From assembly GCF_003001675.1 (NCBI RefSeq), contig NZ_PVYW01000004.1:248001-312000 (forward strand): a stretch of 64,000 nt of DNA. Reading direction: 5' to 3'. The notes under the pieces are model-generated. The model searched no databases, had not been told where the DNA came from, and saw nothing but the letters and a program-made list of their open reading frames with translations. Numbering within the stretch: position 1 is the first letter of the stretch; each line of letters starts with the position of its first letter. The translations under genes were made by a program, and so were the position numbers. This DNA comes from Cohnella sp. SGD-V74 (lineage in GTDB: Bacteria > Bacillota > Bacilli > Paenibacillales > Paenibacillaceae). Positions 43,090-62,005 of this stretch are shown here, piece after piece.

Positions 43090-43147
43090 GCGGGAATAGG
43101 ACAATTTGCGGGGGCATACACATGGACTGTCGAGAGGAGGACGGCAG

Positions 43148-46100
43148 ATGGCGTGCACGAATTTTGGAACGGCTAACGCTTATAACGTATTTCTGCTGGG
43201 AGATCACACGCAGAGGAATTCGCAGGCGGGAGGGCTTGTCGCCGTTGGAGGCAACGCCACCTACACGGATTATTCGGTCAGCGCCGGGCTTCCGGTATCG
43301 CCGACGTTGTCGGGGCTTGTCGTGGCCGGCAATGTCAATATCGTAAGGGGAACGAACACGGGCAATACGGTCATCGGTTTCTCTTCGGTCGTAACGGCTT
43401 ATTCCATGAACAATCTGAACGGTGTCGGTGGTCAGCCGCTGCGGGACAATCCGCTGGACTTTGCAGCGATCGGAACGACGCTGCAATGCTCGTCCCAGGC
43501 ATGGGCGACGCTGCCCGCGAACGGCACGGTGACCAATGACTTCGGGACGCTCCAATTCAGGGGCAGCGATCCGACGCTGAACGTATTCACCTTCGACGGC
43601 AGCAACGTGGCCGGGAGCGGCGTATCGTTGGCCAGCGCCAACGGGATCAACTTTGCGATTCCCGCCGGATCGTTCGTTCTCGCCAACATTTTGGGGAACA
43701 ACGTCGGGTTCGGAAGCTATAGCATTACGTTCAGCAGCGATCCGGGACCGTCTCCGGGAAGCCGGATTCTGTGGAACGTTCCGCAAGCGACTGCGTTTTT
43801 CCACCGCAGCCTGAATATCGTCGGGTCGGTGCTGGCTCCGTTCGCTGCGATTACGGCTAACGGGTCGGGCCAGATCAACGGCCAGTTGATCGCTTTCTCA
43901 TATGACGGCAACACGAACAGCTTTCAGGAAGTATTCGTTCCGTACGGGGGCTGTCTGCCGGAAGTGTGCAATGCGGCCAATCTGACGATTACGAAGACGG
44001 TTAACGGCGCAAGCACCTTCACCGGAGTGCCGGGGACGCCGATTACGTTCATCGTGACGGTGACGAATTCCGGAGGAGCGGCGTTGACGAACGTCGTCAT
44101 TAACGACGAGCAGCTCGGAATCATGCAGACGGTGCCGACGATCGAACCGGGGCAGCAATATTCCTTCACCGTCGATTCCGTCGTGCGGGACGGCAAAGCG
44201 GGCACGAGCTACTCCAACGCGTCGACGGCCTCCAGCGACCAGACCGCAGTCGAAGAAGCTTCGAGCACGGTCGTGATCGGAGCGCTGCCGTTTAATGTAA
44301 GCCTGGTCAAGACGCCGGACAAAATGTCCGCGACGACCGGCGAAGAAGTCACTTATACGTTCACGCTCATTAACAACGGCAACACCGATCTGCAGGACGC
44401 CGTTCTGACCGACCCGGTCCTGGGCATACAAGTGCCGCTCGGCACGGTGTTCGACGGCGAGCTGTATACGGCGACGTTCCGTATTCCGAGGGAAGCCGCT
44501 CCGGGAACGGAGTTTACCAATGTCGCCCGGCTGGAAGCGGCCAACATTCCCGCTCCGGGGTTCGTCACCGCCACGGCGGTCGTATCCGTAGAGGCCGCTC
44601 CGGGAGTCACGCTGACCAAATCCGCAGAACCTGAGGAAGTGTTTCCCGGCGATACGATTCGCTATTCGATCGGCGTGACGAACGATTCGGCGCTTAGCTC
44701 CCGGATCGACTTGAGGGTGAGCGACGAGGTTCTCGGTCTGGATAAGACGATCGCGGTGCTTCCGCCAAGCTCGTTCGTCTCCTACAATCCCGAAGTCACC
44801 GTTCCTGCGAACGCTGCCGCCGGCTCGAAGATCGTCAACACGGCCGTCCTGTTCGGGGGCAACGGCACGCAGGAGGCGACGGCCGAAGTTATCGTCGCCG
44901 CTCGGCCGGGACTGCTTCTGCTGAAGGATTCCGACCGCGATTTCGCCAATCCGGGCGATATCGTCCAATACATTTTGACGCTGATCAACACGGGGAACAC
45001 GATTCTCTCCGGCTTGCAGCTTACCGATTCTTTAACGGGATTGAACGAGACGGTGCCTCCGATCGCCATCGGCGGCCGTACGCAGATTGCGACTTCGTAC
45101 ACGATACCCGCGAGCACGCCGGGAGGAACGCAGATCGTAAATACCGTCGTCGCCCAAGGCGGAGGAATCGGACCGCAGATGGCTTCCTCCGTATTGATCG
45201 TCAGCCAGGTCCCGCTGCCGCCCATTCCGCCGGAGCCGCCCATTCCGCCGGAGCCGCCCATTCCGCCAGAACCGCCCATTCCGCCGGCCGTTCAACCCCG
45301 GCTCGAAGTGACGGGAACCGCCGACCGGCCGATCGTGTTCCCTGAGGAGTCGGTTTTGTTTACCGGCTTTGTCACGAATCCGACGGGCATCACGGTGAGG
45401 AACATCGTTCTGGAATCGCCGCTGTTTCAGTATATCGGTCTGGGAGAGCAGCTGCTTCCGGGCCAGACGATGGAGCTGCAGGCATCGTTTCCGGTTGCTC
45501 CACAGACGCCGCCGGGTACGATTATTACCGCTTCGCTCAGCGCGACCAGCGCGCGCACGTTCCCGGCGGAAGCCAGCGTCTCCGTCGTCGTCGGCGCGCT
45601 GCCCCGGGCGGAGATCGATCTGACCGTGGATAAGCCGGAAGTGCTGCAGAATGAAGTCGTCACTTTCCAGGGAATTGCAGCCAATACGGGCAACGTCGTT
45701 CTGACGAACGTGCGGATTTTCGACGCTCTCAGACTGCGCGACGTGACGGTGCAGAGGTTTCTCGTCGGCGCCACATTGACCGGCAGGGCGAGGCTGACGG
45801 TGCACAACCCGCCTGGCAGCATCGTGGAAGACACGGTCATCTTGACCGCGAATGAGCTGGCTTCTCCGTTGTCCGACACGGTTGCGCTTACGGTGTACGG
45901 GCTGCTTCTCCACTTGTCGGCGGTTCCGCTTGTCGTAGCGGTAGGCGACGAAGTCGCCGTTGCCTTAACCGTGTCCAATCCTTCCCCGTCTCTCGCGACG
46001 GAGATTCGGGTCGGGCAACTGGTTCCCGCCGGCACTGCGTCCGTTGCCGACAGCTTGCGCGTGAACGGCGAGCCGCGGCAGGAGGACCCGGCAGCGGGCG

Positions 46101-46294
46101 TTGGGCTGGGAAGCCTGGCAACCGGGCAATCGGCCGTCATCACCTATAAACTCACGGTAACGACGGAGCCGCAGGGCGGATCGTTCGACATTCAGGCGGC
46201 GGCCGCCTTTTTCTTCCCGGCGACGGCACGCCGGCTTCGCGGAGAATCCCGCTCCAACGCGGTGAAGATTGTCGTGGAGGAAGGGGAGGAATAA
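43148..46294 (+). CDS. Choice-of-anchor A / DUF11-repeat surface protein
   Basis: A 1048-residue protein. Residues about 1-270 form a choice-of-anchor A domain (YNVFLLGDHTQRNSQAGGLV, SGLVVAGNVNIVRGTNTGN, WNVPQATAF, INGQLIAFS). Seven DUF11-type beta domains of about 100 residues follow (starting near 278, 382, 487, 589, 719, 822 and 920; for example TKTVNG, SLVKTPDK, TLTKSAEP, IDLTVDKP). A proline-rich spacer (PPIPPEPP type, about 692-714) splits them four and three. There is no signal peptide, membrane anchor or sorting signal. Such proteins of spore-formers are often spore-surface components; that role is inferred. GGAGG lies eight bases before ATG 43148. Confidence 0.85.
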   Translation: MACTNFGTANAYNVFLLGDHTQRNSQAGGLVAVGGNATYTDYSVSAGLPVSPTLSGLVVAGNVNIVRGTNTGNTVIGFSSVVTAYSMNNLNGVGGQPLRDNPLDFAAIGTTLQCSSQAWATLPANGTVTNDFGTLQFRGSDPTLNVFTFDGSNVAGSGVSLASANGINFAIPAGSFVLANILGNNVGFGSYSITFSSDPGPSPGSRILWNVPQATAFFHRSLNIVGSVLAPFAAITANGSGQINGQLIAFSYDGNTNSFQEVFVPYGGCLPEVCNAANLTITKTVNGASTFTGVPGTPITFIVTVTNSGGAALTNVVINDEQLGIMQTVPTIEPGQQYSFTVDSVVRDGKAGTSYSNASTASSDQTAVEEASSTVVIGALPFNVSLVKTPDKMSATTGEEVTYTFTLINNGNTDLQDAVLTDPVLGIQVPLGTVFDGELYTATFRIPREAAPGTEFTNVARLEAANIPAPGFVTATAVVSVEAAPGVTLTKSAEPEEVFPGDTIRYSIGVTNDSALSSRIDLRVSDEVLGLDKTIAVLPPSSFVSYNPEVTVPANAAAGSKIVNTAVLFGGNGTQEATAEVIVAARPGLLLLKDSDRDFANPGDIVQYILTLINTGNTILSGLQLTDSLTGLNETVPPIAIGGRTQIATSYTIPASTPGGTQIVNTVVAQGGGIGPQMASSVLIVSQVPLPPIPPEPPIPPEPPIPPEPPIPPAVQPRLEVTGTADRPIVFPEESVLFTGFVTNPTGITVRNIVLESPLFQYIGLGEQLLPGQTMELQASFPVAPQTPPGTIITASLSATSARTFPAEASVSVVVGALPRAEIDLTVDKPEVLQNEVVTFQGIAANTGNVVLTNVRIFDALRLRDVTVQRFLVGATLTGRARLTVHNPPGSIVEDTVILTANELASPLSDTVALTVYGLLLHLSAVPLVVAVGDEVAVALTVSNPSPSLATEIRVGQLVPAGTASVADSLRVNGEPRQEDPAAGVGLGSLATGQSAVITYKLTVTTEPQGGSFDIQAAAAFFFPATARRLRGESRSNAVKIVVEEGEE
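45221..45286 (+). repeat. 18-bp tandem repeat coding the proline-rich spacer
   Basis: Nearly four copies of CCCATTCCGCCGGAGCCG encode the PIPPEP spacer of the DUF11 protein. Being a multiple of three, copy-number change keeps the frame, so the spacer length can vary. Confidence 0.8.
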
Positions 46295-51393: not shown

Positions 51394-53700
51394 ATGCACG
51401 GTTGGCTGGGGAGCTGGGGAAAAGCGCTGCACAGTATGAGATGGTGGGTTGTGACGGCGTGGATCGTATGCGCGCTGCTCGGAGGCATCGCGTTCGGCAA
51501 GCTGATGCCTCTGCTGAGCGGCGGAGGATGGGAGGTTCCGGGTTCGCATTCGTACGAGGCCGGCAAGCTGCTCTCCTCGCAATTCGAGGGCCGCTCGGAG
51601 AGCGCGCTGACGCTGGTGCTGAAAGATCCGAATCACGCGGTCGGAACTGCGGAATACAACGACAAGCTGCAACGGATCGTCGACGGATTGCTGAAGGAAG
51701 AAGGCGTGTCCGGAGTATTCAGCATCCTGAATGCGTCCGAGGGGATCGGGGCAGGATTGACGGGCAAGGACCCGTATCTGAGCATCGCTTTCGTGAACAT
51801 GGATTTGCCGCTCGATTTTGCCATCAACCGGATTCCTGAGTATCAGAGGCATGTCGGCGAGCAGGCGGAAGCTCTCGGAGCGGAGGCCTATTTGGTCGGT
51901 TCCTCCGCGTTCTGGGGAGAAAGCAGCGTAGAAAGCCAGAAAGGGCTCGTGCAGGCGGAGATGATCGTCTTCCCGCTCATCATCCTGATTTTGCTGCTCG
52001 TCTTCCGCTCTGTTATGGCGACGATCACTCCGCTGATTGTGACGATCGCCTCGGTGCTCTCGGCGATGGGGATCGTCTATCTGGTCGCACGCGAAACGGA
52101 GCTGTCGGTGTTCGTCACCAATTCCGCGATGATGCTCGGCCTTGGCGTCGGCATCGACTATTCGCTGTTCATCGTCAGCCGCTTCAAAGCCGAGCTGGCG
52201 GGCGGAAGCGACAGCCGAACCGCCTTGTCGACAACGCTGCGCACGGCCGGACATACGGTGTTCTTCTCGGCGATTACGGTCATCGCCGCGCTGTCGGCGC
52301 TGTTCACGGTGCCGCTGTCGGCCATCCGGTCGATCGCTTTCGGCGGCATCGTCGTCGTGTTCGTCGCCGGGCTGGCCAGCTTGACGCTGCTGCCCGCCGT
52401 GCTTGCCATTCTCGGGGCGAGAATCAACAAAGGCATCATTCCGTTCCTGCGGCCCAAGGCAAGCGCGCGCGAAAGCGTATGGCGCAGATGGACGAAAGGG
52501 ATCATGCGGCGTCCGGCGCTGTTCCTCGTTCTGACGTTGGCCGGCCTCGGCGTCCTGGCTTCCCCGGCGCTCGATATGAAGCTCGGCTCGCCGGACGTCC
52601 GCATTTTATCGGCGGACACCGCCGTTCGCCAAGGCTTCGAGCTGCTGGAACAGTCGTTCGGGGAGGGGGCTTCCAATCAGATCGGCATCGTGCTGCGTTC
52701 CGATCGGGGCGATCTGAGTTCTCCGGAATCGCTCGCCAAGCTCGTCGATCTTCAGAGCGAATTGGCGGCGGAGAAATACGTTACCGGCGTCTCCGCCGTC
52801 ACTTCTTTCTTTCCGGGCATCGAACCGGCCGTTATGTCCGGTTTGCTGAACGGGGGAGCGCTGCCCGACGACCTCGCCTTCATGGCGAACAGGTACATGA
52901 GCGCGGACCGTCATACCGCGGTGCTGGAAGTCGGAATCGAGGGGAGCGGTTCGAGCGACGAAAGCAAGGAGGTCGTCAGACGGCTCCGCGACGTCGTGCT
53001 TCCCGGCTTCGAATTGCCGGCCGGAGCGTCCTTCCACATCGGCGGAGAAACAATGAACGGCATGGATACGTCCAAGGCGATCAACGATAGCCTCGTTCCG
53101 GCTCTGGGAGTCATGCTCGTGCTGATCTTCCTGATCTTGATCGGAACTTTCCGCAGCTTGCTGCTGCCGCTCAAGGCGATCGTCCTCAATCTGTTCTCGG
53201 TTGCCGCGACCTACGGCGTTCTCGTGTTCGTGTTCGCGCTGGGCTACGGGGCGGAGCTGTTCAACGCGGAATCGAGCGGGTACATCGTTCACTTCGTACC
53301 GCTGCTGCTGCTCGCCTTGCTGTTCGGGCTGAGCACCGACTACGAGGTGTTCCTGGTCAGCCGGATCAAGGAGGAATACGATCGAACCGGCGCTCACGAA
53401 GAGAGCGTCGCCGAAGGGATGGAGAAGACCGGCCCGCTCATTACCGGGGCCGCCGTGCTGATGGTCGCCGTCTTCGCGGGCTTCGCGTTCTCGGGCGTGC
53501 TGCCGATCCAGATGCTCGGCTTCGGCATGGCTGTGGCCATCGTCCTCGACGCCACGGTCGTCCGCATGCTGCTCGTGCCCGTCTCGATGAAGCTGCTGGG
53601 CCGGGCAAGCTGGTGGCTTCCGGGCATTCGCCGCAAGCCGGGAGACATCGGAACGTCCGCCGGCGGAACGGATAAGCCGGTTCCCGCGACGAACGAATGA
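51394..53700 (+). CDS. MMPL/RND-family exporter (YdfJ-like)
   Basis: A 768-residue membrane protein with about 12 helices in two repeats, each with a large extracellular loop. The first core contains GLGVGIDYSLFIVSRFKAEL and the second GLSTDYEVFLVSRIKEEYD, the GxxxD(Y) proton-relay sequences of MMPL proteins. It should export lipids or amphiphilic drugs using the proton gradient. GGAGAGAG lies before ATG 51394. It is controlled by the TetR gene upstream. The C-terminal 30 residues are hydrophilic. Confidence 0.93.
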   Translation: MHGWLGSWGKALHSMRWWVVTAWIVCALLGGIAFGKLMPLLSGGGWEVPGSHSYEAGKLLSSQFEGRSESALTLVLKDPNHAVGTAEYNDKLQRIVDGLLKEEGVSGVFSILNASEGIGAGLTGKDPYLSIAFVNMDLPLDFAINRIPEYQRHVGEQAEALGAEAYLVGSSAFWGESSVESQKGLVQAEMIVFPLIILILLLVFRSVMATITPLIVTIASVLSAMGIVYLVARETELSVFVTNSAMMLGLGVGIDYSLFIVSRFKAELAGGSDSRTALSTTLRTAGHTVFFSAITVIAALSALFTVPLSAIRSIAFGGIVVVFVAGLASLTLLPAVLAILGARINKGIIPFLRPKASARESVWRRWTKGIMRRPALFLVLTLAGLGVLASPALDMKLGSPDVRILSADTAVRQGFELLEQSFGEGASNQIGIVLRSDRGDLSSPESLAKLVDLQSELAAEKYVTGVSAVTSFFPGIEPAVMSGLLNGGALPDDLAFMANRYMSADRHTAVLEVGIEGSGSSDESKEVVRRLRDVVLPGFELPAGASFHIGGETMNGMDTSKAINDSLVPALGVMLVLIFLILIGTFRSLLLPLKAIVLNLFSVAATYGVLVFVFALGYGAELFNAESSGYIVHFVPLLLLALLFGLSTDYEVFLVSRIKEEYDRTGAHEESVAEGMEKTGPLITGAAVLMVAVFAGFAFSGVLPIQMLGFGMAVAIVLDATVVRMLLVPVSMKLLGRASWWLPGIRRKPGDIGTSAGGTDKPVPATNE

Positions 53701-54039
53701 TGCGGTTTTGCGGAGAAGCTTGCCCTCCCGGCTGGCGGGGCATGAACGCCGTAAAGGAAGGCCGTCTCCATGTGGCGGACAGTTCGTGGAACTACGACGA
53801 CCCGATCACGCGCGACAGACTGCTGCCCGCGCTGCCGGGTATTATGCGAATCCATTCTTCACGCAGGGACGAACGTTCCGTAACTGCCTGACGGAATTGC
53901 AAAAGCGATCGCAAATAAGTCTATGGACCTAATTTCTGAGGAAATTTTTGTCCAATTATGTTACAATATCCGAAATTGCGTTTTCATTTGCGCGCGGGAA
54001 GCATCCCGGCGCGGATGAGTTGACCGCCGGGGGATCGTC
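53701..54039. other. Gene-free spacer between MMPL and hydrolase genes
   Basis: No convincing gene: short frames here (such as 53697-53891) lack a ribosome site and recognisable content. The only noticeable part is an AT-rich stretch near 53930-53975 with AATTTCTGAGGAAATT (near-palindrome) and TACAAT, which may be the promoter of the hydrolase gene. Confidence 0.5.
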
Positions 54040-54894
54040 ATGCCAGAGAAAGCGTTGCCGTCCATTCAGACTTACGAGGCCAGGGACGGAAGATCGTTAT
54101 GTTATCGCCATTACGAGGCGCAATCGGACAGAGTCGTCATCCTGCTTCACGGCATTTCGGAGGATGGGCAGTATTTGCACCCGTTGGCCGATTTTATATC
54201 GGGAAAAGGGTTGGCGCAAGTCGTCGTGCCGGATTTAAGAGGATACGGATACCATCCGGTACGCAGGGGAGACGTGGAGTACGTCGGGCAGCACGATCAT
54301 GATCTGGAGGATCTGGTTCGTTGGCTGAGAAGCCGGTCGGCTTCGCCGCTCGAGATCATTATGGCGGGCCATTCGGGAGGAGGCGGCAACGTCATCCGTC
54401 TGGCCCGGCATCGGCTCTCCGGGGAGATCGGCGGTTATCTGCTGCTTGCTCCCGCCGTGCATCCCGATGCTCCGATTAACCACAAGAAGGAACCGTGGAG
54501 CGACACGCAGGTGAATAAATTCCGCCTGAAGGTTCTGTCCGTGCTTAACGCGATCGGGCTGCGCTTCTGGAATGGCTGCACAGTGCTTCGCAGCGACAAG
54601 CCGACCGAGCGTCGGCACGGCCGCGAGACGCTCGAGCTCAGTTACAGATTGCTAAGATCGAGAACGCCGAAGGCCAAGTATCGCCAATGCTTGCAGGCGA
54701 TGACACAGCCGACGCTCGTGTTGGTCGGAGAGAAGGACGAGGTGTTCCTGCCGGGACAGTACGCTCCAATGTTCGCGGAATGCGGCAAAGCGAAAGTCTC
54801 GCTCATCCAGGACAGCGATCATGACGGCATTTTGTCGGACAAGGCAGCTCTGAGAGAAGTGGAAAGCTGGCTTAAAGCGCTAGGGCGTGTCTGA
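54040..54894 (+). CDS. Alpha/beta hydrolase, C-terminus formed by a dispersed repeat
   Basis: A 284-residue serine hydrolase: oxyanion region LLHGISEDGQY, nucleophile elbow GHSGGGGN, Asp of VGEKDEVFLPG and His of DSDHDGIL. It resembles monoglyceride-lipase/lysophospholipase proteins. The substrate is unknown. The last four residues (LGRV) and the TGA stop are encoded by the left end of a CTAG-bounded palindrome at 54880-54922, so the native C-terminus has been altered there, though after the catalytic His and hence probably without loss of activity. A tandem repeat array follows. Confidence 0.88.
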   Translation: MPEKALPSIQTYEARDGRSLCYRHYEAQSDRVVILLHGISEDGQYLHPLADFISGKGLAQVVVPDLRGYGYHPVRRGDVEYVGQHDHDLEDLVRWLRSRSASPLEIIMAGHSGGGGNVIRLARHRLSGEIGGYLLLAPAVHPDAPINHKKEPWSDTQVNKFRLKVLSVLNAIGLRFWNGCTVLRSDKPTERRHGRETLELSYRLLRSRTPKAKYRQCLQAMTQPTLVLVGEKDEVFLPGQYAPMFAECGKAKVSLIQDSDHDGILSDKAALREVESWLKALGRV

Positions 54895-54922
54895 ATACTC
54901 CGAGTATGCATGCACGCCCTAG
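54880..54922. repeat. CTAG-bounded dispersed palindrome, 43-bp copy within the hydrolase 3' end
   Basis: CTAGGGCGTGTCTGAATACTCC continues into GAGTATGCATGCACGCCCTAG. It keeps both ends of the family and a short part of the interior (CTCCGAGTATGCATG, compare CTCGGAGTATGCATAC at 57481-57496). The sequence forms a hairpin with central ATACTCCGAGTAT. Confidence 0.85.
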
Positions 54923-54981
54923 TAGAGCGCCCCCGAAGTAACGTAACCAAGATGTTGAAGAATCTAGGCTGACTCAGTCTT

Positions 54982-55649
54982 GCTGAGTCGGGTTGGAGCG
55001 ACGAAAGGGCCGGTAGAGTAGCTGCAACCGTGCTGAGTCGGGTTGGAGCGGCGAATGAACTGGTAGAGTAGCTGCAACCGCGCTGAGTCGGGTTGGAGCA
55101 TCGAATGGGACGTCAGAGTAGCTGCAACCGCGCTGAGTCGGGTTGGAGCGACAAAAGGGCCGGTAGAGTAGCTGCAACCGTGCTGAGTCGGGTTGGAGCG
55201 GCGAATGAGCTGGTAGAGTAGCTGCAACCGTGCTGAGTCGGGTTGGAGCATCGAATGGGACGTCAGAGTAGCTGCAGCCGCGCTGAGTCGGGTTGGAGCG
55301 GCGAAGGGGACGTCAGCGTAGCTGCAACCGCGCTGAGTCGGGTTGGAGCATCGAATGGAACGTCTGAGTCGCTGCAACCGTGCTGAGTCGGGTTGGAGCG
55401 GCGAAAGGGCCGGTAGAGTAGCTGCAACCGTGCTGAGTCGGGTTGGAGCGGCGAAAGGGCCGGTAGAGTAGCTGCAACCGTGCTGAGTCGGGTTGGAGCA
55501 TCGAATGGGACGTCAGAGTAGCTGCAACCGCGCTGAGTCGGGTTGGAGCGACGAAAGGGCCGGTAGAGTAGCTGCAACCGTGCTGAGTCGGGTTGGAGCA
55601 TCGAATGGGACGTCAGAGTAGCTGTAACCGCGCTGAGTCGGGTTGGAGA
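54982..55649. repeat. Tandem array of thirteen 50-bp hairpin-forming units
   Basis: Units start at 54982 and every 50 bases to 55632 (the last is partial). Each reads GCTGAGTCG, then GGTTGGAGC, a 21-base loop, GCTGCAACC, and GT or GC. GGTTGGAGC and GCTGCAACC pair over eight of nine positions. The 21-base loop comes in three types: A (CGAAAGGGCCGGTAGAGTA), B (CGAATGARCTGGTAGAGTA) and C (ATCGAATGGGACGTCAGAGTA). Order is about A-B-C-A-B-C-C'-C'-A-A-C-A-C. A hairpin CTGACTCAG/CTGAGTCGG opens it, and AGTAAGATTGC/GCAATCGCATTTTACT closes it. It is not a CRISPR array, because the 'spacers' repeat. Confidence 0.9.
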
Positions 55650-55726
55650 GTAAGATTGCATCGGCTTCGAGCGCAATCGCATTTTACTTCTGGAATGCTC
55701 TACTAGGGGAATGAGAGGGAAACGGG

Positions 55727-57178
55727 ATGCCAAGAAAGAACGAAGAGAAAACAACGAAGGCGCCGGCCAAAAAGCCGGCCTCTTCCGGTTCATCGTCCTC
55801 TGCCGTAAGCGACGCCCTTCTGGAAATGCAGCAGACAGGGGGCAACCAGCAAGCGCTGAGCATGCTTAGCACGGTGCCGGCCACGGCGACGCCTTCCGCG
55901 AATACGTTCAGCGTCAGCTCGGAAGGCTTTCAGTATCAGCTGCCTCAAGCGCCGCTGATTCAGGAGTTCAATCGCGACCTGCTGTCCGGTTACTCGCATG
56001 CGCCCAGCGCGAGCGATCGTGAGCGGTTTCCTCATCTGAACCAGGAGGAGTCGGGAAGGCGTTCGGCAGAGCTGCGCGATCCTTCCGATCGGGCCGCTCT
56101 GGTGAAGGAAGCGAGGAACCAGGGCCGCGCGCACAGTTACGTTCGGCTTGACGCCGCCTCTCCCACGGTACCGGGGAGGAAGCACAGACTGGGCAGAATG
56201 CAGGGCAAAAGCCAGCGCGGGCAAGAGAAGGAGCAGCATTTCTACGACAACGGGGGCAAGTTCACTCCCTATCCGCGAGAGGCCGATCATCTTCAGAGCA
56301 TGACGTCCTCAAGCACAAGCAGACAGGACGTATGGAAAGCGCTCGATGCCGTTAATCGCGGTGAACAGGTGCCGGAAGGCTTCGAGGGCCATGAGCGGGA
56401 GCTGATGTCAGTTCCGACCATTACCAATCTCTCCGAAGTGCAGCGTTCTCCGCTTATGGGAGCGGCCAGCAATATGGAAATCGCCAATCAAGCCCATACG
56501 TCAGGAACGCCTAGGCCGTTCGAGGAAGCCTTCGGGAACTCGGAGGAGCGGGAGGTCAAGAAGAAACGCAAGAGGAAAACGGAGGACGACGGTTCGGATT
56601 CCGAGGATTCGAAGACGAAAGCGTTCAACTTCCCCGGATCGATCAGCTCGACGGGAGCGGGAGCCGTTCATCAGTTCCAGGCGGTGGAGGACTCCATCAT
56701 GAGGGGGGAGATGTCCGACGAATCGGTCAGCAAACGGGTCAAGAGAGCTCCCGAGGCCGGTACGGTCAAGGAAGCGCGCGACTTCGCGGTCAAGAAGAAG
56801 AAGGCGCTGTTAAATACGTTTCAAGACCGTCTGCAGATGACGGACATCTCCTACGCTCAGAGCGAGCCGACCGGCGAGGATCGCGAGCAGGCAACGCTGA
56901 TGCGGCTGAGATCCGGCTTGCGCCGCAATGCGCTGCCGCAGATGGGGCTGCTGCGAGGCGGGCTCCGCACGCTGGAGAAGTCGTCTGCAAGCTCGTGCTC
57001 CTCGTCTTCGGAGGAGAAGACGCCTCTCGAGGCGTTCGATCCCGGAGAAGAGGTCGAATTCGAGGACGAGGAGTTTCTGCCCCCGGAGAACGAGTTGGAG
57101 GAAGATTCCGAAGACGAGAGCGAGCCGGTGGACGAAGAGGAAGAAATGGACGAAGAGGAGATTGAAGAGAAGAAATAG
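55727..57178 (+). CDS. Unrecognised 483-residue protein with Lys/Arg cluster and acidic tail
   Basis: N-terminal low-complexity segment (KKPASSGSSSSAVSD) is followed by a globular-looking part: PGRKHRLGRMQGKSQRGQEK, YDNGGKFTPYPREADHLQSM and GHERELMSVPTITNLSEVQR. The middle contains VKKKRKRKTEDDGSDSED, which resembles a eukaryotic nuclear-localisation or nucleic-acid-binding cluster, and the last about 90 residues are almost all Glu/Asp (EEEEMDEEEIEEKK). 'EADH' could be the metal-binding start of an HNH-like nuclease, but the rest of that motif cannot be located with confidence. No signal peptide. GAGGGA precedes ATG. A strong terminator follows. Confidence 0.75.
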   Translation: MPRKNEEKTTKAPAKKPASSGSSSSAVSDALLEMQQTGGNQQALSMLSTVPATATPSANTFSVSSEGFQYQLPQAPLIQEFNRDLLSGYSHAPSASDRERFPHLNQEESGRRSAELRDPSDRAALVKEARNQGRAHSYVRLDAASPTVPGRKHRLGRMQGKSQRGQEKEQHFYDNGGKFTPYPREADHLQSMTSSSTSRQDVWKALDAVNRGEQVPEGFEGHERELMSVPTITNLSEVQRSPLMGAASNMEIANQAHTSGTPRPFEEAFGNSEEREVKKKRKRKTEDDGSDSEDSKTKAFNFPGSISSTGAGAVHQFQAVEDSIMRGEMSDESVSKRVKRAPEAGTVKEARDFAVKKKKALLNTFQDRLQMTDISYAQSEPTGEDREQATLMRLRSGLRRNALPQMGLLRGGLRTLEKSSASSCSSSSEEKTPLEAFDPGEEVEFEDEEFLPPENELEEDSEDESEPVDEEEEMDEEEIEEKK

Positions 57179-57338: not shown

Positions 57339-57505
57339 CTAGGGCGTGTAAGCAAACCCGCTCAGGGGCATCTATCACCGCCTTTTCGCCCCCTGCTTCG
57401 TCACTTTTGCTTGACGTACCCCCGGTACGCCTTCACAAAAGTTCCTTGCATGGAACGAAAATTCGGTAATATCTGCTGTCCTCGGAGTATGCATACACGC
57501 CCTAG
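57339..57505 (-). repeat. CTAG-bounded dispersed palindromic element, full-length copy 2 (167 bp)
   Basis: Reverse complement of the copy at 42933-43089 with about 90% identity and about ten extra bases near GGCGAAAAGGCGG. The ends are CTAGGGCGTGTAAGCAAACC and TATGCATACACGCCCTAG. It lies between the terminator of the 483-residue gene and the HssR-like promoter. A short frame starting at 57271 (MEQAGKLLKSGSVRVQ) runs into its left end and could be a remnant of a gene interrupted by it. Confidence 0.88.
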
Positions 57506-58309: not shown

Positions 58310-59700
58310 GAACGTTATATGTGCGGATCGTGGCAACGTTCGTCGGCATCGCCTTCGTCAGCGGCATCGTCGGGCTGGCGCTGACAGGAGTTTATTACCA
58401 GGAGCGGATGAAGTCGGAGAGCGAGACGAAAGCCTGGGAGATGGCGCAGAGCATCCGGGAGCTATACGAGCAAGGGATGCAGTCGAGCCTGGACCAATAC
58501 TTGGCGGCGGTCGCGAAGCTCGGCTTCCAGATTTACGCCGTCGACGAGCGCTTGGAAGGAAAGACGTTCGGGCGGGCTTTCAAGCATGGCACGCTCGACG
58601 ACTCCGCGATCCGTCTCGTTCTGGACGGCGGCGTCTTTCACGGGATGGAGGAAGAGAACGGGAGGGTAAGGCTGTTCGCCCTGTTCGAGAACAGCGTGCG
58701 CAATACGGTCGGCATTCCGGTCCGAACGCCGGAGGGCGGCTATGCCGTATTCGTCCGCCCCGATCTGGAGGCGCAGATCGGAGAAGTGCGGATCGTCTCG
58801 GCCGTTCTGATCGGGTTGACCTTCCTCGCGAGTCTTGTCCTGATCGCGGTCTTGAGCCGCTACATCGTCAAGCCGCTCAACGTGCTTAAAGAAGCGACCA
58901 GGCGTATCGCCAGAGGCGACTTCAACGTCGAACTGGAGAAGTCCCGCAGCCGCAAGGACGAAATCGGGGATCTGGCCGAGCACTTCGCCCTGATGGCCGA
59001 TTCGATCGGTCGGCTCGACCGGATGCGCCGGGATTTCGTGGCGAACGTATCGCACGAATTCCAGACGCCGCTTACGTCGATGCAGGGATTGGCCAAGGCG
59101 ATGCGCGACCAGCAGACGACGCCGGAACAGACCGAGCAATATTTGGGAATCATCGAGCGGGAGAGCCGGCGGCTGTCTTCCCTTAGCCGCCAATTGCTGA
59201 AGCTGGCCTCGCTTGACCGGGACGATGTGCGGCTCCAGAAGGAGAGCTTCCGCTTGGACGAGCAGATCCGCGAAGCGCTGATTACGCTTGAATGGCAGTG
59301 GTCGGAAAAGGAGTTGAATCTGGAGCTTGAGCTTCCGGAGACTTTCGTAACCGCGGACGCTCACCTGCTGCACGAGGTATGGATGAACCTGCTCTCCAAC
59401 GGCATCCGCTTCTGCGAGCCGGGAGACACGATAGCGGTCTCCATCCGGGAGGAACGGGGCAATCAAGTCGCGGTGGAAATCCGCGACACCGGCTGCGGAA
59501 TTCCCGAAGAGGATCTTCCCTTGATCTTCGACCGGTTCCATAAGGCGGACAAATCCCGCAGCCGTTCCTCGGAGAACGGCGGAAGCGGGCTGGGCTTGTC
59601 CATCGCGGGGAAGATCGTCGCGCTTCATGGCGGGACGATCGCCGTCGAGAGCGAGCTCGGGCGCGGAACGACGTTTACCGTGCGCCTGCCGCAATTGTAA
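58306..59700 (+). CDS. Sensor histidine kinase, HssS-like
   Basis: A 464-residue transmembrane kinase: helix 1 near residues 9-29, an extracellular sensor (about 30-165) with RLFALFENSVRNTVGIPV and YAVFVRPDLE, which matches the pattern of HssS, a second helix near 170-190, HAMP, HisKA with phosphoacceptor His in NVSHEFQTPLTS (near 250), and HATPase motifs (EVWMNLLSNGIRF, DTGCGIPEEDLPLIFDRFHK, GGSGLGLSI). HssS senses haem-induced stress. The start is GTG 58306, translationally coupled to the regulator gene. Confidence 0.92.
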   Translation: MRTLYVRIVATFVGIAFVSGIVGLALTGVYYQERMKSESETKAWEMAQSIRELYEQGMQSSLDQYLAAVAKLGFQIYAVDERLEGKTFGRAFKHGTLDDSAIRLVLDGGVFHGMEEENGRVRLFALFENSVRNTVGIPVRTPEGGYAVFVRPDLEAQIGEVRIVSAVLIGLTFLASLVLIAVLSRYIVKPLNVLKEATRRIARGDFNVELEKSRSRKDEIGDLAEHFALMADSIGRLDRMRRDFVANVSHEFQTPLTSMQGLAKAMRDQQTTPEQTEQYLGIIERESRRLSSLSRQLLKLASLDRDDVRLQKESFRLDEQIREALITLEWQWSEKELNLELELPETFVTADAHLLHEVWMNLLSNGIRFCEPGDTIAVSIREERGNQVAVEIRDTGCGIPEEDLPLIFDRFHKADKSRSRSSENGGSGLGLSIAGKIVALHGGTIAVESELGRGTTFTVRLPQL

Positions 59701-59770
59701 TGCCCCGTTCACCGTCCGTTCATCTTCCGATTCGATAATCGGGGAGAACAACGGATGGGAGGATGGAGAG

Positions 59771-62005
59771 ATGAATGTGCACGGATGGAACAAATGGTTT
59801 GTCTTATTCGGCAGCCGCCGCGGAGCGATAACGACGCTCTCCGCGTGGCTGCTTTTACTTGTCGCGCTTGCCGTTGCCTCGCCCGGAGCGAAGCAATACG
59901 CCGTCAGCGCCGGGGAAGGCGGCGCTGACGGCGCCAATCCGGCCGCCGTCGCCCAGCGCGTGCTCGAAGAGCGCTTCCCGCAAAGCGAAGGCTTGGCGGC
60001 TCTGCTCGTGTTTCACGGCGACGGAGCTCTGGACGGGGAGAAGCTGGGAATAATCGCGGAGTTCAGCAGATGGCTCGAATCGGAGGGCAAATCTTTGAGG
60101 GTCAAGAGCTCGATTCCGTACTATGCGCTTCCAGAGCAGGAACGAAGTCGCTTGGTATCGCAAGACGGTACGACGCTGCTGCTGAGCGCCGAACTGCAAC
60201 CGGATCTGGATTCCGACCGTACGCTGGAGGCGATGGAGGCAATCCGGGACTATTGGGAGCGGCACGGGGCGGAAGGAGTCCGGCTGGAGACGACCGGTCC
60301 CGCCGCAATCTCCGCGGACACGCTGACGCTGTTCCGCAATGCGGATTTCGTGCTCATGATCGCGACGGTCGCGCTCATTCTCGTCCTGCTCGTGACGATC
60401 TACCGGTCTCCGCTGCTGGCGGTCATTCCGCTCGCGATCGCGGGCATCGTCTACTCGGTCGTGGACAAGCTGCTCGGAGTGGCGGGCCGAGCCGGTTGGT
60501 TCGTCATCGACAAGCAGTCTCTGTCGATCATGATGATCTTGCTGTTCGCCGTCGTTACGGATTATTGCTTGTTTGTCTTCTCCCGCTATCGGGAACGGCT
60601 GGCCGCGGGCGGTTCGAAATACGAAGCGATGGGAGAAGCGATGGCGCGCGTCGCGGAACCGATCCTGTTCAGCGGCGGAACGATTCTCGCGTCCATGCTG
60701 GCGCTGTTCGCGGCGATCTTCCAGCCGTATCGCGGCTTCGCTCCGATATTCGCGATCGCCGTGGCGGTCATTCTGCTGGCGGGATTAACGCTGATACCGG
60801 CCGTCTTCGCGATCGCCGGCCGCAAAGCATTCTGGCCGTTCGTCCCGAAGACGGCTCCGGGCGGGAAAGGTGCGAGTATCGGCGCTGAGCGGGCGAACGC
60901 CAAGAGAAGAATACCGCTGTGGGAGCGGACGGGCCGCTTCGTGACGAGGAAGCCGAAGACGATCGCGGCGACGCTGTTCGCGCTGCTGGCCTTGGCCTCG
61001 TTGAACATCGGGTCGCTGCAATACTCTTTTAACCTGATGAAGTCGTTTCCCGCGGATACGCCTTCCCGCGTCGGCTTCGAACTGCTGGAGTCGCGGTTCC
61101 CGCCGGGAGAGCTTGCCCCGGTATCGCTCATACTGGAAGGCGGAGAGAGCTTGGCGGGAGATGCCGAGGTTGAATCCAAACTTGCGGCGTTCGCGGAAGA
61201 ACTGCAAAAGGGAGGCGGAGCGGTCGGGATTTCGGCGGGCGAATGGTCGGAGGATAAAGGAGCGGTTCGGTTGCGGGCCGTTATGAACTCGAACCCGTAC
61301 GAAGCGGAAGCGTTGAACCGGATAGATCGCTGGCGGGAGGAAGGCCCAAGGCTGCTCGAGCGGAGCGGATTCGATTCGAAGAGCGTCAAGCTCCATATTG
61401 CCGGACAGACGGCGGAGCAGGCGGACGTTCGGACCATGAACGAACGGGATACGATCGTGCTGTTCGCGTCCGTCTCCCTGTTGATCGGGCTCATGCTGAC
61501 CGTGCAGACGCGTTCCTGGAAAATGTCGCTCCTCATGCTGACAACGATCGTGCTGTCATTCGCGGCGACGCTCGGCCTGACCTGGACCGTCTTCCACGGC
61601 TTGCTCGGCTACGAGACGTTCAGCTACCGCATGCCGGTATACACGTTCGTGTTCATGGTCGCGCTGGGCGTCGACTACAACATCATGCTCGTGTCCCGAA
61701 TCCGGGAGGAGGCCGAGCATTACCCATGGAAAGAAGCGGTAAGCCGGGGCGTCGCCTTCACGGGAGGAGTCATCTCGTCCGCGGGTCTGATTCTGGCGGC
61801 CACGTTCGGCGTTCTGATCACCCAACCGATGCAGGAGCTGTACCTGTTCGGATTCGCGATGACCGTCGGCATTCTGATCGATACGTTCCTCGTGAGGGGA
61901 ATGCTGCTTCCTTCGATATTGACGGTCGTTTTCAGGAATGGGAAGAAGTCGTCGGCTTCCTCGCCAAATCGAAGTGATAAGCCGATCCCCATGGCGAATA
62001 AATAA
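59771..62005 (+). CDS. MMPL/RND-family exporter next to HssRS
   Basis: A 744-residue two-repeat MMPL protein with GVDYNIMLVSRIREEAEHYP in the second half and DYCLFVFSRYRERLAAGG in the first, plus two extracellular loops. It resembles the MMPL protein at 51394-53700 in size and layout. ATG 59771 follows GGAGGATGGAGAG. Located 70 bases after the HssS-like kinase, it takes the place usually held by the haem exporter HrtAB, so it may detoxify haem or a membrane-damaging compound (inference). Confidence 0.92.
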   Translation: MNVHGWNKWFVLFGSRRGAITTLSAWLLLLVALAVASPGAKQYAVSAGEGGADGANPAAVAQRVLEERFPQSEGLAALLVFHGDGALDGEKLGIIAEFSRWLESEGKSLRVKSSIPYYALPEQERSRLVSQDGTTLLLSAELQPDLDSDRTLEAMEAIRDYWERHGAEGVRLETTGPAAISADTLTLFRNADFVLMIATVALILVLLVTIYRSPLLAVIPLAIAGIVYSVVDKLLGVAGRAGWFVIDKQSLSIMMILLFAVVTDYCLFVFSRYRERLAAGGSKYEAMGEAMARVAEPILFSGGTILASMLALFAAIFQPYRGFAPIFAIAVAVILLAGLTLIPAVFAIAGRKAFWPFVPKTAPGGKGASIGAERANAKRRIPLWERTGRFVTRKPKTIAATLFALLALASLNIGSLQYSFNLMKSFPADTPSRVGFELLESRFPPGELAPVSLILEGGESLAGDAEVESKLAAFAEELQKGGGAVGISAGEWSEDKGAVRLRAVMNSNPYEAEALNRIDRWREEGPRLLERSGFDSKSVKLHIAGQTAEQADVRTMNERDTIVLFASVSLLIGLMLTVQTRSWKMSLLMLTTIVLSFAATLGLTWTVFHGLLGYETFSYRMPVYTFVFMVALGVDYNIMLVSRIREEAEHYPWKEAVSRGVAFTGGVISSAGLILAATFGVLITQPMQELYLFGFAMTVGILIDTFLVRGMLLPSILTVVFRNGKKSSASSPNRSDKPIPMANK

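Follow-up and report, generated by a model that had tools for sequence, protein, structure and literature searches.

Two described bacterial repeats come closest to the feature reported here. BOX of Streptococcus pneumoniae is 67-637 bp long, according to the accessible part of its description (PMC3049150). BrickBuilt of Porphyromonas gingivalis is a minisatellite inside a MITE, with 19 intergenic copies in one strain and with filled and empty sites at two loci, as far as the accessible part of that paper goes (PMC4596501). The window, i.e. the whole 64,000-nucleotide stretch of Cohnella DNA that was analysed, contains a feature that works like BOX or BrickBuilt, in that it is modular, non-autonomous, intergenic and variable in unit number. 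It has the modular A-(B)n-C architecture by which BOX is recognised, and on this architectural ground we call it BOX-like. With moderate confidence, we explain the feature as a BOX-like element, probably moved by IS630, that carries a hairpin array, itself a member of a period-locked class spread across the genus.

Anatomy, copies and target site of the element

Tandem Repeats Finder places a tandem array of period 50 and 13.4 copies at 54981-55648. It comprises thirteen 50-bp units on the forward strand (54981-55630) and a partial fourteenth that runs to 55648, and its core GTCGGGTTNNAGC recurs at an exact 50-bp spacing in 12 matches, compared with 0.00 expected from shuffles. The original prediction of thirteen 50-bp units is therefore borne out, with the partial unit in addition. 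Its three loop types and their opening order A-B-C-A-B-C were also recovered, but this order breaks after unit 6, from where we read C-like, C, A, A, C, A, C. Coding was rightly ruled out as the cause of the window array, as 50 is not a multiple of three. A 29-base hairpin and a 21-base spacer make up each 50-bp unit. The first of the 13 hairpin copies, GCTGCAACCGTGCTGAGTCGGGTTGGAGC, lies at 55021-55049 (forward strand) and the others follow every 50 bp, the last at 55621-55649, with counterparts that covary across the genus.

The array is the middle part of a larger element (54919-55706, forward strand), composed of a 5' module, the array and a 3' module, that runs from CTAG to CTAG and shares its ends with other elements of the genome. 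The left terminal inverted repeat CTAGTAGAGC (54919-54928) opens a 62-bp 5' module (54919-54980), near-identical in about 10 copies, and the right terminal inverted repeat GCTCTACTAG (55697-55706) closes a 3' module (55649-55706) with an internal hairpin at 55654-55678, all on the forward strand. Separate inverted repeats had been proposed to mark the start and the end, and both marks were located. At the start, an inserted 43-bp palindrome, which belongs to a second repeat family (CTAGGGCGTGT...GCACGCCCTAG; 54880-54922, no strand assigned), abuts the inverted end at the CTAG of the element and holds the stop codon of the upstream gene (54892-54894); at the end, the hairpin of the 3' module is followed by the matching inverted end.

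No gene of its own was found within the element, and a consensus scan of 54800-55800 found neither promoter nor intrinsic terminator in it, the single terminator-like site lying outside. There was no match indicating a plasmid or phage origin of the feature; the single viral-contig match proved to be the same genome (100% over 3855 bp) and was discarded. A search of 54000-56500 against Rfam returned one sub-threshold match, outside the array, and no Rfam covariance model reached its gathering score at 12 array loci. The array had been linked to the neighbouring 483-residue protein, which has no Pfam match. This link failed: among the examined array loci, tblastn matched the protein only at the window's own locus. 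A locus-specific scaffold or sponge RNA is not supported either, as arrays adjoin unrelated genes (66 flanking proteins, with 6 distantly related pairs). Elsewhere in the window, two large MMPL-like transporter genes flank the array region (51394-53700, a Pfam MMPL match, and 59627-62005, judged MMPL-like by eye), and an 18-bp coding repeat (PPIPPE, 45217-45287) lies in a large cell-surface-like reading frame (43106-46294).

The genome of the window (genus Cohnella, 8.24 Mb in 59 contigs) holds >30 such arrays, which speaks against a device confined to a single locus. A search of this genome gave 49 matches, merged by eye into 32 places, and a triple pattern gave 373 matches, 328 of them in the fetched loci. 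With split copies counted once, 19 elements have at least one recognisable end. Young copies consist of the 62-bp 5' module starting CTAGTAGAGC, 2 to 26 units and the 3' module ending GCTCTACTAG; related modules are kept in older copies (L020, L039 and L058). Allowing ≤3 mismatches, the first 30 bp of the 5' module occur in 13 copies and the last 34 bp of the 3' module in 14, with 0 matches to the reversed-pattern control in both cases, and all of these 13 + 14 end matches belong to arrays. Of these 27 matches, 26 carry CTAG as their outermost four bases and one carries CTAC, and the two ends, CTAGTAGAGC and GCTCTACTAG, constitute the terminal inverted repeats that define a MITE. Few indel events were available for comparing units with modules. 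Two copies (L010+L057 and L024+L029, by eye) are apparently split, at contig ends, by an insertion sequence with GTAAGCGTCAAA ends, presumably IS66-like; one of the splits falls inside a unit and shows a seeming 8-bp duplication. An unrelated-looking tandem array of period 42 with ~25 copies (L013:7071-8122) starts ≤5 bases from the end of a called gene.

Flanks are different at every copy shown. In one of 12 flank comparisons covering 6 elements, a clean empty site was obtained: the joined flanks of L028, with one CTAG kept, align without a gap to genome G032, where the site reads TTAA. This case provides the target duplication with an empty site expected of a MITE, TA and CTAG both fitting as the duplicated target, which is drawn from a single locus because only this comparison was clean. 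The density of CTAG is 0.20 per kb in called genes versus 1.75 between them (repeat-borne CTAGs partly masked), and this nine times higher density helps account for the intergenic placement of the element. The end CTAG holds a gene's stop codon in 7/17 elements, a borderline enrichment (p 0.053), at the 5' end in L018, L019, L020, L022 and L032 and at the 3' end in L011 and L017.

IS630 reportedly prefers CTAG, going by the title of a study, and insertion at TA within CTAG is what the same 26 of 27 end matches display. Duplication of TA by IS630-type elements is described in the accessible part of PMC2170065. The mobiliser would most likely be an IS630/Tc1-mariner type transposase that acts in trans on the TA of CTAG. 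No transposase with the array-element ends was found around the DDE_3 genes examined. The only strong IS630-type match of the genome lies in two adjacent reading frames near a contig start, where its ends could not be read, and was set aside as a mobiliser. The contig start just before this transposase gene (L136:1-100) resembles the end of a group II intron.

CTAG is also the target of the second repeat family (CTAGGGCGTGT...ACACGCCCTAG), which has 8 matches in the fetched loci of the window's genome. It abuts an array-element end in five cases (the window, L009, L013, L019 and L020) and lies inside the element in L010, and a further copy starts at the 3' end of L018 and of L032. The window itself carries two copies (57339-57505 and 54880-54922), and one copy in Cohnella phaseoli (L124:1299-1464) lies ~100 bp from the site that matches the L012 array. 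The CTAGTAGAGC end is also present at one C. phaseoli array (L061) and absent within 250 bp of the other 58/59 arrays of period 49-52 in other genomes, and mobility is therefore shown for the window's subfamily only.

A covarying hairpin across the unit boundary

Covariation across genomes had been suggested as a check of the stem that closes over the 21-base loop. The arms of this stem pair at 8/9 positions, with a G.G mismatch that occupies the fourth pair in 340/395 units. Among 395 units from 41 arrays, with 24 distinct arm pairs, 210/288 positions were paired compared with 214.3 in shuffles, and 1812/2000 shuffles were as good, i.e. the stem does not covary between arrays. Neither do the spacer ends in unit consensuses (126/581 paired versus 147.6 in shuffles). 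Within arrays, 3506 paired cells of the stem versus 3501.3 in shuffles, with 15/500 as good, represent an excess that we dismissed as too small for any claim.

The prediction that hairpin pairing is conserved between species was nevertheless correct, with a different pairing. We refer to this as the linker hairpin: its GCTGCAACC...GGTTGGAGC arms close across a 13-base linker and thereby span the unit boundary. With arrays from twelve genomes anchored on GCTGYAA, 311/581 positions of the unit consensuses were paired versus 239.3 ± 10.9 in shuffles, and 0/2000 shuffles were as good. The inner seven pairs gave 350/539 versus 280.6 ± 10.5 (0/2000), and the outer seven, on the anchor side, do not covary. 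Controls slid by 1 or 2 bases either way were null; these keep the relatedness of the arrays, which the shuffles ignore, and a few nearly palindromic arrays were counted on both strands. When one array per genome was used (12 genomes), 42/84 positions formed Watson-Crick pairs versus 25.5 ± 4.6 (1/2000), and 46/84 versus 34.2 (10/2000) when G-T pairs were allowed. The 29-base linker hairpin is thus under pairing constraint across the genus, which implies that some step uses it in folded form, as RNA or single-stranded DNA. Local minimum-energy folds, computed for 24 chosen loci, agree, with the linker hairpin in 71/135 units and the stem over the 21-base loop in 9/135 (7/8 and 1/8 in the window); the linker hairpin fails to form in some arrays, such as L036 and L170. 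Hairpins are also not universal: among 106 arrays tested, 34 had one matched by ≤5% of shuffles. These results serve as a warning that the stem which looks obvious in a tandem array may mislead, as the pairing protected by evolution here crosses the unit boundary.

The covariation of the linker hairpin also favours a working RNA of 3' untranslated regions, which would be transcribed with the upstream gene, slow 3'-to-5' decay, block Rho or bind a host protein, be retained for this effect, and keep its period and hairpin as its sequence drifts. We regard this explanation as unlikely, yet it has further evidence on its side. In the window element, folding of the sense strand is far more stable than that of the antisense strand (-350 versus -247 kcal/mol); however, this difference is partly a consequence of high G content (in 38/39 arrays the chosen strand has more G than C) and the strand was chosen partly by the purine-rich loop. 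The arrays also lack an Rfam match.

Period and placement of the arrays across Cohnella

A search of related genomes for the core, proposed as another check, was carried out with a loose pattern and found the core at period 49-52 in 27/37 genomes; the reversed-pattern control also matched in 11/37, and its matches exceed those of the pattern in two of the 27 (G010 and G025) and in two genomes outside them (G020 and G005). An exact-50 pattern matched 4/37 genomes, two of them with one match each, and 4/392 in a wider set, three being from other genera with one match each; a contig scan returned 28 stretches, of which the two examined are C. phaseoli. The near-confinement of the family to two species that this suggested is refuted by the looser pattern, and it arose because the period and the arm were fixed in the exact-50 pattern.

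The period itself is clustered. In the fetched Cohnella loci, 104 of the 121 arrays with a period ≥25 have a period of 49-52, a figure biased by the choice of most loci with a 50-bp pattern. A less biased sample, Cohnella pieces totalling 800 kb chosen by coordinate, contains 21 tandem arrays, of which 16 have a period of 51-52. G023 contributes 11 arrays in 200 kb, 10 of them at 51-52, and G006 two arrays in 200 kb, both at 51, these two genomes being already known to bear arrays; twenty further pieces, one per genome (400 kb), contain 8 arrays, 4 of them at 51-52. Twenty 20-kb pieces from other genera of the family (400 kb) contain no arrays. Grouping 98 arrays by similarity with single linkage gave 24 clusters, one of 69 arrays and 23 small. 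Of these clusters, 13 have a main period of 50-52, and the main periods of the other 11 are spread between 27 and 46. Clusters with no detectable similarity may share a remote ancestor. Six of the 45 arrays in G023 and G006 overlap called reading frames, which we took as spurious. Judged by eye, one candidate (L095 in G012, period 50) seems to have no relation to the window family and was set aside. In G009 and G006, at least two arrays of period 51-52 with different units lie a few kb apart (L094, L175, L178 and L179).

Some sites are shared between species. Directly 3' of aroH (chorismate mutase, TIGR01796) there is an array of 7.6 units in the window's genome and of 9.0 units in C. phaseoli; the DNA around the two is 84-87% identical, and each array shows concerted change of its units. 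A third array at this position, of period 51 and different in sequence, is found in G010; in nine other genomes the next match follows aroH after only ~40-225 bp. Twelve aroH loci were examined, the ten outside loci besides C. phaseoli being the best-scoring matches, unselected for arrays. The following gene is present in 10 (G032 and G026 lack a gene match), and in 7/10 species an array of period 50-51 begins ≤76 bp past its stop (G000, G028, G016, G029, G031, G006 and G025); G017, G010 and G011 have none at this site. The units at the seven sites mostly differ, those of G031, G006 and G025 looking alike by eye. Pooled, the seven units reach a hairpin score of 111 versus a shuffle mean of 84.3 (0/300 as good), and singly two or three of the seven exceed shuffles, that of G000 not among them. 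Both the seven sites, with hairpins that beat shuffles when pooled, and the arrays directly 3' of aroH in three species favour a working 3'-untranslated-region RNA; several species have no array at either site, which counts against it.

An array between purC and purS, in the order purB-purC-array-purS-purQ-purL, favours this RNA, as does the orientation of the arrays. Of 35 loci, 14 lie between tandem genes in the same sense and 3 in the opposite sense, 11 between convergent and 3 between divergent genes (two of the divergent assignments rely on weak reading frames), and 4 are unassignable. The preference for the sense of tandem genes, 14 to 3 (p 0.013), becomes 18 to 4 (p 0.004) with five loci read by eye, but is only suggestive because the sense of diverged arrays was set by the purine-rich loop. 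In G023 and G006 together, convergent gaps hold 16/38 placed arrays versus 42/274 background gaps (p 0.0003, arrays sharing a gap being counted apart), which also favours the RNA; divergent gaps in these genomes show no significant depletion (p 0.65). Against it, the neighbouring genes have no obvious common function.

The arrays could also act as DNA, with a transposase or nucleoid protein binding to inverted half-sites (GTTRSAGC / GCTGYAAC) that recur about every five helical turns. The half-site letters are nearly fixed in the window's genome as the spacers diverge, and periods of 50-52 bp would come near five turns of DNA; however, this conservation is inflated by how the arrays were found, and the inner hairpin letters change compensatorily in other species, for which pairing is a better fit than a fixed protein site. 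We consider this explanation improbable. A passive minisatellite made by slippage, with hairpins by chance only, would agree with the varying unit number, the homogenisation within arrays, the absence of a common gene function and the single units' hairpins, most of which do no better than shuffles (72/106 above the 5% mark), but it is very improbable in view of the many copies with sharp, shared, transposon-like ends, the empty site, the covariation between species and the clustering of periods at 50-52 among arrays with no detectable sequence relation.

The best explanation is the BOX-like, probably IS630-moved element. The feature would be a non-coding, non-autonomous mobile element built of a 5' module, n x 50 bp and a 3' module, with inverted ends at CTAG. 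CTAG being rare in genes and commoner between them and at some stop codons, copies would come to lie in intergenic DNA, frequently right behind the 3' end of a gene. The array would grow, shrink and homogenise by slippage or unequal exchange, as the variation in unit number and the homogeneity within arrays suggest. In one lineage, the mobile element would carry hairpin arrays of 50-52 bp, a class that is older than the element and spread over the whole genus; some arrays of this class would stay in place between species as their units turn over. We favour the view that the repeats are for the most part selfish and have come to rest in 3' untranslated regions, in which their hairpins may do little harm or modestly protect mRNA ends. 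The failure to find a transposase with these ends and the single clean empty site count against this explanation, as do the sense-orientation bias, which would be unexpected for a purely passive repeat, the array between purC and purS, and the placement 3' of the post-aroH gene in 7/10 species, which is hard to square with mere selfish spread. The arrays in seven further aroH loci (one 3' of aroH, six 3' of the next gene) make the functional and architecture-conserved readings likelier and the best explanation less likely.

The architecture-conserved reading, which we put forward tentatively as a possibility, is that Cohnella intergenic arrays are conserved in architecture and not in sequence. 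Units of ~50-52 bp (about five DNA turns), many with a compensated hairpin, would be replaced at the same 3' sites across species. Their period would be dictated by some machine or structural requirement and not by shared letters, and in some lineages a CTAG-targeting mobile element would take up such an array as cargo, the window being one such case. If this is true, the period could stem from a protein filament, from a transposase, from a step of replication or from folded RNA.

Comparison with known systems

In CRISPR arrays, partly palindromic repeats alternate with unique spacers. The present array resembles them in that a partly palindromic repeat of ~29 bp alternates with spacers of ~21-23 bp. 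These spacers are not unique, and CRISPR was rejected: in 15 loci, 106/158 units have one of 20 loop sequences that recur at two or more loci. We found no description of these arrays in the open-licence PMC literature, which leaves most subscription papers outside it.

REP, BIME and REPIN sequences, as presented in the accessible parts of PMC3733652 and PMC3116915, are likewise short palindromes in many copies, and the title of the REP paper names GTAG and CGTC tags; the window element begins CTA-GTAG and ends CTAC-TAG. The long, regular head-to-tail arrays of 50-52 bp set the present family apart from them, as does the ungapped empty site, which argues for a short target duplication. BrickBuilt shares more: a leader, a tandem repeat and a tail, small inverted ends, a variable unit number and predicted stem-loops. 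Within the accessible part of its description (PMC4596501), it has a 23-nt unit, is reported from P. gingivalis and P. gulae and makes 4-bp duplications (GAAA, AAAA), compared with 50 bp, CTAG, hairpin covariation and genus-wide conservation of the period here. BOX, as far as the accessible part of PMC3049150 describes it, has the same succession of an end module, variable direct repeats and an end module, with terminal inverted repeats and an intergenic location. It also shares predicted RNA hairpins, an excess between convergent genes and a proposed movement in trans by an insertion sequence. The Cohnella element departs from what that part describes in its 50-bp unit with up to 26 copies, its CTAG ends, the covarying pairing that spans neighbouring units and the related arrays without such ends across the genus.

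In summary, the window feature differs from BOX and BrickBuilt in unit length, target, the genus-wide period and the covarying pairing across the unit boundary. BOX and BrickBuilt are single families, whereas Cohnella offers many arrays whose sequences diverge as the period, the hairpin and sometimes the site persist. This turns into a testable question what fixes the repeat length of bacterial tandem arrays: ancestry, a physical ruler or selection on folded RNA.
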